Assembly (NCBI GenBank): GCA_025153755.1
Contig: JAOALD010000002.1
Location: 186,001-250,000, forward strand
Length of the DNA: 64,000 bases
Source: SAR92 clade bacterium H921
GTDB lineage: Bacteria; Pseudomonadota; Gammaproteobacteria; Pseudomonadales; Porticoccaceae
Direction of reading: 5' to 3'
Both the position numbers and the translations under genes were made by a program. Below are positions 44,363-48,779 of the stretch, piece by piece. The first letter of the stretch is position 1; the number at the start of each line of letters is the position of its first letter. The notes beneath the pieces were generated by a model. It did no database searches. It had not been told where the DNA came from and was given only the letters and a program-made list of their open reading frames with translations.

Positions 44363-45217
44363 ATGACGTTAAGCCACTCACCTCAGCCAATTCTGTCCAC
44401 AGACAATCTGGGCATAACCTATCCCGGCGGTATTGAAGCATTACGCACAACCTCTATCAACTTTCAGCGTGGTGAATTCACTGTGTTGCTGGGTTTATCC
44501 GGCGCCGGGAAATCATCCTTACTGAGGTCGCTGAATCACTTGGTGAAACCTACCTCAGGGAACATAACTTCTGCTGAATTCGGAATACTGGATAATCAAC
44601 GCACATTGCGCAAGCATCGACGCAAAACTGCTATGGTATTTCAACACCATCAACTGATTCTGCGTCATACCGCCCTGCAAAATGTGCTCATGGGGCGGTT
44701 GGGATATCATTCATTCTGGCGTAGTTTATTGCCACCACCCAAAACCGATCTTGAACTGGCCCTGCATTGTCTGGATCGAGTGGGCCTTGCTGACAAAGCC
44801 CTGGCGCGGGTCGATCAACTATCGGGCGGCCAGCAACAACGTGTTGGCATTGCCCGCGCTCTGGCACAGCAACCAAGCATTATTCTGGCGGATGAGCCTG
44901 TCGCCAGCCTGGATCCATCCACCTCCGAAAAAATCTTGTCTCAATTGAAACAAATCTGTGCCGAAGACGGCATTACCTCTATCATCTCGTTGCATCAACT
45001 TGAATATGCCAAACGTTTTGCCGATCGCATCATTGGTTTAGCTCAAGCCCAAGTTGTGTTTGATGCCGCTCCGCAAGAGCTGGATGACAAACAACTCAAG
45101 TTGATTTATCAACAAACTCCCGGCATCAAAAAAGGTAAACCTACCACCGAAACACAAACCAATTCTTCTTATCAACATTTACCGACTAAAACTGCAACAC
45201 AACTGGAGATAACATAA
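44363..45217 (+). CDS. ptxA: Phosphite ABC transporter ATP-binding protein PtxA
   Basis: 284 residues. Walker A GLSGAGKS (44-51), signature LSGGQQQR (153-160) and Walker B ILADEP (174-179). It is of the phosphonate/phosphite PhnC-type family. I start at the ATG at 44363, which has AAAGG seven bases ahead; a GTG 15 codons upstream has no such site. It powers the importer with PtxB and PtxC. The stop TAATG overlaps the ptxB start by one base. The following dehydrogenase fixes the substrate as phosphite rather than phosphonate. Confidence 0.92.
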
Positions 45218-46080
45218 TGAAACTATTTAAACAACTACTCTTAGCCACCACCTTACTGGTGGCAGCCATAAGCTCGGGCATGGCAGCAGATGCTGATCCG
45301 GATATGCTTAAAGTCGCCTTGCTGCCGGATGAAAACGCTTCCGAACTGATCAAACGCAATAAACCCCTAAAAGATTATCTGGAAGCCAAGTTAAACAAAG
45401 AAGTGGAATTAATTGTCACCACCGATTATTCATCCATGATTGAAGCTATGCGCTTTGGCCGTATTGATCTGGCCTATTTCGGCCCCTTGTCTTATGTCAT
45501 GGCAAAATCAAAAAGTGATATTGAGCCGTTTGCGGCAATGATCATCGACGGTGTACCAACATACCGTTCAATCTTGATCGCCAATACAGAGTCAGGCATT
45601 GATTCCTATGCCGATATTAAAGGTAAAAAAATGGCCTATGGTGATCGTGCCTCAACGTCCAGCCACCTCATCCCGAAAACGGTTCTTTTAGAAGAAGGCG
45701 GTATCGAAGCGAAAACCGATTACGAACAACACTTCGTCGGCTCGCATGATGCGGTGGCTGTCAATGTGGCCAATGGTAATGCGGATGCTGGCGGGCTGTC
45801 TGAGGTGATATTTAAGTATGTGGTGGAACGTAAACTCATTGACCCGGCGAAAGTGAAAGTTTTGGGCCATAGCAAACCTTATCCACAATATCCCTGGGCA
45901 ATGCGCTCCAACCTCAATAACGATCTCAAAGCGAAAGTCAGGGATGCATTTGTCAGCCTGGATGACAAAGAAGTGCTGAAGAATTTCAAAGCCGAGGGAT
46001 TTGCGCCGATTACTGATGCCGATTATGACGTAATACGTGTTATGGGCAAATTACTCAATCTCGATTTTTCAAAGATGTAA
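45217..46080 (+). CDS. ptxB: Phosphite-binding periplasmic protein PtxB
   Basis: 287 residues with a signal peptide (about 1-24, ending SGMAA). The segments [54 protein letters not shown] and [15 protein letters not shown] are nearly the same as I recall for PtxB of Pseudomonas stutzeri WM88, including the Y-FGPLSYV and STSSH binding-pocket elements. It captures phosphite with high affinity in the periplasm. GGAG precedes the start, and the gene overlaps ptxA by one base. Confidence 0.95.
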
Positions 46081-46089
46081 GGACGATTT

Positions 46090-46896
46090 ATGGATACTCA
46101 CCTGCTTACACAAACAGATGTGCTTGAACGTTACAGCCAGCACTGGAAACGTAAAACCCTGCAGGTGGTGACCTTATTGGTCATCGTTCTGCTGGCAGCC
46201 TGGTATGTGAATGTACTAAATTTCGAGATTTTGGCAAATGGCTTGCCCGCCATCGGAACCCTGGCTGGCGAGTCTTTTCCCCCGGACTTTACCAACCTTC
46301 AGAACTGGTTTGCCCCCTTACTGGATACGCTGGCAATGAGTATTGCCGGTACCGCGATTGCGGTTATGTTTTCGGTACCCATGGCCTTTCTGGCAGCGCG
46401 TAATACCTCGCCTCATGGCATGATATTCCAGCTGGCACGCATCGTTCTTAATGCCCTGCGTTCTGTTCCGGAACTGATTATGGGGATTATATTTGTCGCC
46501 GCTGTCGGCTTTGGTGCCTTACCCGGTGTGCTGGCTTTAGCACTGCATTCCATCGGTATGGTGGGTAAATTCTTTGCCGAAGCGATTGAGCACGTGGATG
46601 AAGCACCGGTGGAAGCCGCCCGTGCCGCTGGTGCCTCACCGATGCAGGTGCTCTATCACGCAATTCTTCCGCAAGTGATGCCGCAGTTTGCCGATGTCGC
46701 GATTTATCGCTGGGAATATAACTTCAGGGCTTCAACAATCATGGGCATGGTTGGCGCTGGCGGTATTGGTTTTGAACTGATGGGTTCACTACGCATTATG
46801 CAATATCAGGAAGTACTGGCGATCCTGCTAGTGATTCTGCTGATGGTCACATTGGTCGATGCGTTGAGCGGCCTGTTACGCAAAAAATTCAAGTAG
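46090..46896 (+). CDS. ptxC: Phosphite ABC transporter permease PtxC
   Basis: 268 residues, about six membrane helices. The coupling 'EAA' loop EAARAAGASPMQVLYHAILPQ lies near 177-197, as in PhnE/PtxC permeases, and YRWEYNFRASTIMGMVGAGGIG follows. Together with PtxA and PtxB it imports phosphite. AAGGACG is the ribosome site; it begins nine bases after ptxB. Confidence 0.94.
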   Translation: MDTHLLTQTDVLERYSQHWKRKTLQVVTLLVIVLLAAWYVNVLNFEILANGLPAIGTLAGESFPPDFTNLQNWFAPLLDTLAMSIAGTAIAVMFSVPMAFLAARNTSPHGMIFQLARIVLNALRSVPELIMGIIFVAAVGFGALPGVLALALHSIGMVGKFFAEAIEHVDEAPVEAARAAGASPMQVLYHAILPQVMPQFADVAIYRWEYNFRASTIMGMVGAGGIGFELMGSLRIMQYQEVLAILLVILLMVTLVDALSGLLRKKFK

Positions 46897-46905
46897 GAGA
46901 TAACG

Positions 46906-47922
46906 ATGAAACCAAAATTGGTAATTACGCATAAAGTACATGAAGAGGTGTTAGACTTATTATCACCGCATTGTGAGTTGATCACGAATCAGACCCCGTT
47001 CAGTTTATCACGCAACGAAACGATGCAGCGGGCGAAGGAGGCAGAAGCCTTGATGGTGTTTATGCCGGATCGGGTAGATACCGCTTTTTTAGAGGCTTGC
47101 CCGCAACTGAAGGTCATTGGTGCGGCATTAAAGGGCTATGATAATTTTGATGTCGATGCCTGCACTGAACACAATGTCTGGCTGACCTTTGTACCAGATC
47201 TATTAACAGTACCCACAGCTGAATTAACCATCGGCCTGATGGTCGGATTAATTCGGCATATACGGGCAGCGGATCAACATGTACGTATTGGAAACTTTAA
47301 GGGCTGGCTTCCACAGTTTTATGGTATGGGAATTGAAGGATCCACTATTGCGATTATCGGCATGGGTGCGATTGGTCAGGCCATTGCACAAAGGCTTAGC
47401 GGCTGGGGTGCAACGTTAGTCTATACCGACACTCAGCCTCTGGACGCTGAACAACAAGCAGCATTAAAACTTGAATTTTTGTCTTTGGACGACGCCCTTG
47501 CTCAGACCGATATCGTGATTATGGCACTGCCATTAAACTCGCAAACGCAACATCTTTTAAATGCACAACGTTTACAGCAGATGCGGCCCGGTTCATTTCT
47601 GGTGAATCCCTGCCGTGGGTCTATCGTTGATGAAAGTGCCATTTTAGATAAGCTTAATAGCGGCCATTTAGCCGGATATGCCAGTGATGTTTTTGAAATG
47701 GAAGACTGGGCACGTCTCGACAGGCCAAAGGAAATCAATCCCAATTTATTAGCACATCCCAACACCTTGTTCACGGCACATATCGGTTCAGCGGTGAGCA
47801 AGGTCAGGTTAGCCATTGAAACACGTGCGGCTGAAAATATTCTCAGGGTTTTGAACGGCGAGCCTCCATTGGATCCGGCCAACCAATTACCCGCACAAAA
47901 GGAAATGGCATGCTCAATCTGA
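46906..47922 (+). CDS. ptxD: NAD-dependent phosphite dehydrogenase PtxD
   Basis: 338 residues of the D-2-hydroxyacid dehydrogenase superfamily. Diagnostic for PtxD are [20 protein letters not shown] (with K76), [20 protein letters not shown] and NPCRGS. Catalytic R237, E266 and H292 fall at the same numbers as in P. stutzeri PtxD. The Rossmann motif is GMGAIG (152-157) and the acidic residue that prefers NAD over NADP is D175. It oxidises phosphite to phosphate with NAD+ in the cytoplasm. AGGAG lies ahead of the start, and the 3' end overlaps ptxE by 13 bases. Confidence 0.96.
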
Positions 47923-48779
47923 TCTGGCTGAAAAGTTTGATCATGGTAATTGAGAAGCGCAGTTTTCAGGCAGCTGCCGAGCAGCTGGGATTAGCCCAAC
48001 CAACTATCTCGCAGCATATTCAGAAGCTGGAAGAAACGCTCTGCGTATCCTTGATTCATCGTGTGCGTAGCGGTTGCCAGCCGACTGAATATGCCCTTCG
48101 TCTTTTGCCGTATGCGCAGAGCATGTTGCGACTACAAGACAGAGCCTTGCTGGCTGTGAATCAACCCTCCATGAGAATTGGAGCCAGTTCAAATATCGGC
48201 ATTTATCTGTTGCAGCCTTACCTGCAGAATTACCGGCATAAACAAGCGTTTATAAATGACAAACTGGATATCGTAATAGACAGCAACCCAGTCGTTGCCG
48301 AAAAACTGGATAATGCTGAAATCGATATTGCCTTGATGGAATGGTGGCCAGGTAAAGCTGGTTTTGAATCTCAAATCTGGAAAACCGAAGCATTAGTCTT
48401 GATTACGCCTCCCGATCATCCGCTTGCAAAACTGTCATCGATCAGCAAATCAATATTGTCCGGGCTGAATTTGTTAGGCGGAGAATCTGGCAGCGGAACA
48501 GGAAGGATACTCAAAAACTACCTGCAGGAATGCCAGCATTTTCCCACAGTATCAATGCAACTGGGCAGCACAGAGGCCGTTAAGCAGGCGGTTCGGGCAG
48601 GCATAGGAATATCGCTGGTATTTGCATCGTCTGTTGTTGATGAGGTGCAACACGGAAGTTTATGTGCAATCCCTTTAGAGGATCATGCGTTAACAAAAGA
48701 CATCCAGCTGGTCTGGCGGCAGCAACCGACCATTCAGCAAAAACAGCCGCAATTTGTTGAATATTTACTCAGTTCATAG
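47910..48779 (+). CDS. ptxE: LysR-family regulator PtxE
   Basis: 289 residues. N-terminal winged helix-turn-helix ([24 protein letters not shown], about 18-41) and a C-terminal periplasmic-binding-protein-like effector domain. It is last in ptxABCDE, overlapping ptxD by 13 bases, the same place as ptxE in P. stutzeri. It probably controls the operon from the same transcript; ligand unknown. No hairpin with a T run was found after it. Confidence 0.9.

Follow-up and report, generated by a model that had tools for sequence, protein, structure and literature searches.

Within a 64,000-nucleotide window of the genome of SAR92 clade bacterium H921 (contig JAOALD010000002.1, positions 186,001 to 250,000 of the forward strand; all of it is here called the window), an intact ptxABCDE operon for phosphite oxidation is present at 44363-48779. 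It lies in an island of about 15.0 kb that, judged from its sequence, is probably an integrative element of the type known as GInts, with the ptx genes as its cargo. This reading is carried by recombinase core genes at one end of the island, 6-bp repeats at both ends, insertion into a gene for a TSCPD protein with the reading frame kept, and absence of the island from congeners. A near-copy of the same ptx DNA adjoins an unrelated operon, of the strand-biased circularizing element (SE) type, in other bacteria, so that phosphite use seems to travel from one bacterium to another as cargo. An earlier note on this DNA had described the operon as cargo of a recombinase-bearing island; it did not map the ends.

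The island is flanked by a carbonic anhydrase gene on the left and, on the right, by the TSCPD gene, which we take to be nrdJb-like. The ribonucleotide-reductase gene adjoining the island was searched for in 56 genomes, including the host, and matched in 49. Two genomes of the same genus (L007 and L008) have no island at the site, the gap between the tblastn matches to carbonic anhydrase and TSCPD being 326 bp and 110 bp, respectively. By comparison with these uninterrupted sites, as the earlier note had suggested, the junctions could be placed at two copies of GCATTT (Table 1); the island is therefore about 15.0 kb long and inserted at the codons AAA TGC, and the ptx genes fall inside its ends, as cargo should. 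The frame of the target gene is kept: the island supplies a final Ser and the stop codon (SKCS*), where relatives have Gly, and the protein ends in SKCG at 23 of 24 same-genus loci (the remaining one was not readable). Insertion at the end of a gene without loss of frame, here with the last residue changed from Gly to Ser, is one of the marks of a GInt. The direct repeat is exact over 6 bp only, and its extension to 10 nt is imperfect; the inner ends of the island form imperfect inverted repeats, a score reached by 29 of 5000 random pairs. The GC content is 0.433 in the island versus 0.48 in the flanks, and no tRNA target was found in the window. Near the left end lie short direct repeats of the AATTGTGTAAGAAACTCA type (43253-43341), rich in AT and in part inverted at 43073, which are possibly accessory recombinase sites.

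The operon itself is as it was first described, with all five open reading frames (ORFs) in canonical order and one orientation, overlaps of 1 and 13 nt, and spacers of 9 nt. PtxD and PtxB are nearest to characterised phosphite proteins. PtxD belongs to the 2-hydroxyacid dehydrogenases, and K76, D79, R237, E266, H292, D175, and T176, which we take to be catalytic or cofactor residues, can all be read in it; R237, E266, H292, and D175, the residues singled out in the earlier note, are thus in place, and the enzyme is predicted to be NAD-dependent, probably so. PtxB is of the PF12974 family, scores above the TIGR01098 cut-off, and has 5o2j as its best solved relative (470 bits) and 5jvb as its second (327 bits). 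An alternative start for ptxA, a GTG at 44318, is likewise open. The candidate Pho box upstream, scored against a consensus that we assume to be the right one, is weak, as 10 sites in the window reach a score of at least 11. The ptx operon of P. stutzeri WM88, which reportedly has this gene order, shares that order and the enzyme family, but the window PtxD is only about 62% identical to those of Stutzerimonas loci.

Table 1. Positions in the window of the features discussed in the text.
Feature	Position	Strand	Evidence or remark
Left 6-bp repeat GCATTT (attR)	42624..42629		Adjoins the remnant 3' end of TSCPD with its terminator
AT-rich element end	42630..43875		GC 0.385; 85-aa ORF at 43450-43707
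Three 19-bp direct repeats (GAGTAATAAAGTTGTTAAC type)	43716..43774	+	Inverted relative to 49190-49208
Shared ptx segment	43876..49089	+	blastn 93.4% nt over 5.2 kb, five SE-type loci
Candidate Pho box	44278..44295	+	11 of 14 consensus positions; same sequence in L040
ptxA, ABC transporter ATPase	44363..45217	+	TIGR02315 313.5 bits, cut-off 266.1 (PhnC equivalog)
ptxB, phosphite-binding protein	45217..46080	+	PDB 5o2j, E 2e-140
ptxC, permease	46090..46896	+	TIGR01097 (PhnE) 302.7 bits, cut-off 216.7
ptxD, phosphite dehydrogenase	46906..47922	+	PDB 9pr0/4e5n, E about 1e-141; R237 E266 H292 D175
ptxE, LysR-type regulator	47910..48779	+	PF00126, PF03466
Inverted 19-bp repeat copy	49190..49208	-	Degenerate copy at 49245
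RecD2-like SF1B helicase	49344..51521	-	TIGR01448 364 bits, below cut-off 500
VPA1267-family protein	51518..51955	-	NF040697 190 bits, cut-off 90
GinD-like small protein, 162 aa	51955..52443	-	blastp 26% to L036_4, 42 bits
GinC-like large tyrosine recombinase, 729 aa	52421..54610	-	blastp L036_3 307 bits, L121_3 82 bits; HMM 223 bits
GinB-like tyrosine-recombinase-fold protein, 518 aa	54607..56163	-	NF041502 119 bits (cut-off 350); HMM 223 bits
GinA-like tyrosine recombinase, 417 aa	56160..57413	-	blastp L036_1 204 bits, L120_1 76 bits; HMM 176 bits
Right 6-bp repeat GCATTT (attL)	57643..57648		Within target-gene codons AAA TGC
Target gene, TSCPD protein	57637..58320	-	PF12637

Horizontal transfer of the operon, also implied in the earlier note, is supported. 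Among 50 genomes of the genus, 30 of them at least 90% complete, ptxD was found in the host only (the 49 others were negative), as was the third recombinase. The nearest PtxD (96%) belongs to other families, and in a tree of 81 rows, 42 of them different and with a bootstrap not fully settled, the window groups with five SE-borne copies from those families (support 100/97); many rows are identical across families. On the matters to which the earlier note had tied its claim, namely the state of this locus in related strains, the association of recombinase islands with ptx elsewhere, and the agreement of the ptxD phylogeny with the species tree, the outcome favours transfer.

The class of the element was judged in part from the core operon, which starts at the right island end. 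The trio of recombinase genes noticed earlier is there, and a small fourth gene (GinD-like, 51955-52443) makes it a quartet of 417, 518, 729, and 162 aa. A P. putida plasmid has a quartet (L036) to which all four proteins correspond in order, at 36, 34, 29, and 26%, and the first three match, at 25-29% with partial coverage, quartets located directly behind ssb on plasmids of E. coli and P. aeruginosa (L120, L121). Hidden Markov models (HMMs) made without window sequences find the same three at 176, 223, and 223 bits. GInts have been described as three integrases and a small protein, sitting at the end of ssb, of the ribonucleotide reductase (RNR) alpha gene, and in other places, with a short AT-rich 3' end and imperfect flanking direct repeats of 10-17 nt (PMC5385486). 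The island resembles them in its three recombinase-fold proteins with a small fourth at one end and cargo behind (a ginABCD operon, with GinD recognised through a single weak match), in its AT-rich far end, and in its harmless insertion at a gene end, as at ssb and RNR alpha in GInts.

Several observations nevertheless weigh against a simple assignment to the GInts. An HMM of other GinDs misses the window GinD, which only one relative matches (L036_4). GinC has been reported to be without the first catalytic Arg (Bardaji 2017, PMC5385486), yet here it is the second protein, not the third, that is without it: the first Arg motif (GxRxxE) is not recognisable in the 518-aa GinB-like protein, whereas the 729-aa GinC-like protein keeps the full R-H-R-H-Y set (R218, H544, R547, H548, Y579), and R218 is invariant in all five third proteins aligned. 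The direct repeat is exact over 6 bp and imperfect when extended to 10 nt, compared with imperfect repeats of 10-17 nt in published GInts, and both the VPA1267-RecD2 gene pair and the phosphite-oxidation cargo set the island apart from published GInts. This pair was not found at nine loci with window-type genes (L036, L050, L120-L123, L142-L144), several of which are incomplete or short-flanked. Three things speak for membership, namely the architecture of the island, the type of its target, and the homology of its core to quartets next to ssb. Furthermore, a profile of other GinCs gives the third protein of an SE-type locus (L040) a weak 11 bits, and L036, the closest quartet, weakly matches the SE of plasmid pAQU1 (blastp E 7e-4 and 0.003), so that GInts and SEs do not come cleanly apart. 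For this reason, together with the mismatch in the first Arg, we say that the element looks GInt-type and do not call it a proven GInt.

The SEs are another class to which it might belong. They have been described as a distinct group with the gene order intA-tfp-intB-srap and a median size of 15.7 kb, recognised by strand-biased attS formation and no empty site after recombination (Idola 2023, PMC10214605), and an SE was placed by the same authors on pAQU1 beside blaGMA-1; that quartet served as our reference. The island shares with SEs a four-gene core, a 6-bp core sequence, and imperfect terminal inverted repeats; its length of about 15 kb is near the SE median, the succession of a catalytic, a degenerate, and a large catalytic protein fits the SE description, its relative L036 shows the weak pAQU1 matches just mentioned, and SE-type loci elsewhere bear nearly the same ptx segment. 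The proteins speak otherwise. No window core protein matches the pAQU1 SE at E <0.5, and no Tfp or Srap homologue was found among the window proteins in comparison with that one SE, whereas proteins 1-3 of L040 match their pAQU1 counterparts (blastp 7e-13, 0.004, and 4e-13, values that are flattering as they come from sets of four proteins; HMM 51, 19, and 52 bits), the fourth having no match. Window and L040 quartets show no blastp match at E<0.01, and the middle protein has 518 aa, while Tfp matches of <550 aa were dropped from the published survey as truncated (PMC10214605). That the island is an SE and not a GInt is therefore, in our view, unlikely. Elsewhere in the host genome, outside the window, there are three further tyrosine recombinase matches (G000:C1:356060-360293 and G000:C8:25867-26286).

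Between the core and the cargo lies the VPA1267-RecD2 pair, which was otherwise seen in this analysis with GMT islands (Mahata et al. 2024, via PMC12039261 and NCBIfam names). A Vibrio plasmid (L037) has, behind its gmtX, relatives that are 71% (helicase) and 77% (VPA1267 protein) identical; VPA1267 matched 47 plasmid records, and gmtX is annotated under the match in 17 of the 20 listed. In contrast to GMT islands, the window has no recognisable GmtY, GmtZ, or GmtX, and the NCBIfam GmtY model gives the 518-aa protein 14 bits against a cut-off of 340. Among 369 genomes of the class, VPA1267 (NF040697) matched four at E <=0.001, the window alone above the cut-off, and recurrence of the GInt-GMT combination is therefore not demonstrated. 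A short tandem TTTTTAC array is located at 49306-49354, immediately downstream of the RecD2-like gene.

The earlier note had also proposed looking for the same recombinase trio in the flanks of PtxD homologues. GTDB genomes gave 279 ptxD loci, and the best 80 were kept; 17 of these are under 12 kb, so that some core genes were likely missed. Multi-recombinase operons do recur: tblastn discovery found core genes in the fetched flanks of 11 of the 80, which are SE-type in nine cases (L040-L043, L045, L066, L068, L084, and, through one weak match of 33 bits, L090), GInt-type in L050, and GMT in L108. HMMs were partly made from L040, L050, L066, and L108 loci or genomes, the HMM matches of which are thus not independent. 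What does not recur is the trio itself where the ptx DNA is shared: at the five loci bearing the shared segment, from Marinomonas (three), Motilimonas cestriensis, and Methylophaga aminisulfidivorans, ptx is trailed by a quartet unrelated to that of the window (485, 641, 689, and 134 aa where complete), which by comparison with pAQU1 is SE-type. These loci are pairwise 99.96-100% identical over shared pieces, quartet included, and these pieces reach 12.4 kb among the Marinomonas loci and 11.2 kb when Marinomonas is compared with Motilimonas; the contig of one (L042) stops inside the quartet. In Methylophaga the attR of the element was sought by its terminal repeat with no convincing match (best score 13, 49-nt query), and the enclosure of ptx there is thus deduced from the shared block of ptx and quartet and not from both ends. 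At other Methylophaga loci the ptx operon is 76-78% alike, and their flanks gave no recombinase-core match. The background in the 369 class genomes is low (four matches to the third-protein profile, the window included, three to the SE profile, and four to PtxD at E <=1e-90), which makes it probable that ptx and element genes seldom lie together by chance, even if islands do cluster. We judge the 11 loci and the window to represent about six origins. Plasmids have PtxD relatives (E <=1e-60) too, in 703 records of which 577 are from Klebsiella; ptx on plasmids has been published before (PMC10117892).

Some of these loci have features of their own. In Methylophaga aminisulfidivorans (L043:12306-13539) an insertion sequence interrupts the fourth SE-type core gene. 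In Pseudomonas neustonica (L050:4354-12745) ptxABCDE is flanked by two insertion sequences of the same direction with identical 431-aa transposases, a composite-transposon arrangement beside GInt-type genes. Three Pseudomonas genomes (L126, L127, and L129) have ptx and an SE-type quartet in common at 99.8-100% DNA identity over long pieces; outside the element, a flank of 3.4 kb with a presumably HrpB-like helicase gene is 79.1% alike in L126 and L127, and L129 has no match there. In Marinobacter sp. S6332 (L128:11743-17730), a GMT-type trio with a fragment of VPA1267 lies at about 7 kb from ptxD.

How the operon came to be in the island is less certain than that it is there. It is conceivable, if on balance doubtful, that the island was already resident, and perhaps immobile, when ptx arrived as a small mobile unit of its own, bounded by 19-bp inverted repeats, and became its passenger. 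The repeats do bracket the ptx segment, just outside the 43876-49089 block at the limits of which homology to the SE-type loci ends, and at up to two mismatches they are unique in the 2.57-Mb genome (four matches, namely the three at 43716-43774 and the one at 49190, against none for a reversed control pattern); they are possibly a cargo boundary. The two insertion sequences of identical protein sequence around ptx in P. neustonica are consistent with such a unit as well. However, no transposase lies between the 19-bp repeats, and at up to three mismatches a search of 148 loci found the repeats only in L124, a stretch of the window itself, apart from a single match with three mismatches in pAQU1 that is probably due to chance.

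The other alternatives fare worse. One could suspect a dead remnant, yet all four genes of the core and those for ptx have open frames of the expected length, and both island ends are intact, which makes this rather improbable. Were ptx a chromosomal operon that merely sits beside a recombinase island, one would expect what is in fact seen, that ptx and the recombinases form separate convergent units and that 69 of the 80 ptx loci show no core-gene match (though 17 of the 80 are <12 kb); against this, ptx sits inside the mapped ends, ptxD was not found in the 49 other genus genomes searched, and PtxD groups with other families, and this explanation is already largely refuted and can hardly be correct.

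If the island is indeed a GInt-type element with ptx as cargo, its recombinases would join the island ends in the way proposed for GInts, through a staggered exchange of 6 nt, and give a circle that could enter new genomes and integrate at the same conserved gene end, with the RecD2-like helicase and the VPA1267 protein perhaps aiding the processing or copying of DNA. In the cell, PtxABC would import phosphite and PtxD would oxidise it to phosphate with NAD+, under the control of PtxE and perhaps also of the Pho system. The ptx segment would have moved between element classes, perhaps by way of the bracketing inverted repeats or of insertion sequences.

The earlier note had regarded the vehicle as undescribed, and this claim has to be trimmed since GInts, SEs, and GMT islands are all published, so that the class of vehicle is not new, and ptxABCDE in a genomic island is already in print for PAGI-7 of P. 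aeruginosa, an island of about 22.5 kb (review PMC12024412). What stands is that our literature searches, which covered open-licence papers, found no tie of ptx to GInts or SEs. Tentatively, one may go further and picture GInts, SEs, and GMT islands with phosphite use as a standard passenger that circulates in this way through the gammaproteobacteria, with one ptx segment swapped between unrelated classes, the VPA1267-RecD2 pair as a portable DNA-processing module common to GInts and GMT islands, and the private 19-bp inverted repeats as a cargo exchange site; we hold this broader picture to be possible rather than probable.

The cell-to-cell transfer of these elements is poorly understood, and near-identical cargo beside two unrelated recombinase systems raises the question of how such elements load and exchange what they carry. 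For phosphite oxidation, an alternative phosphorus supply of patchy distribution, the island would provide a concrete and delimited vehicle of spread, with a target site that can be tested.

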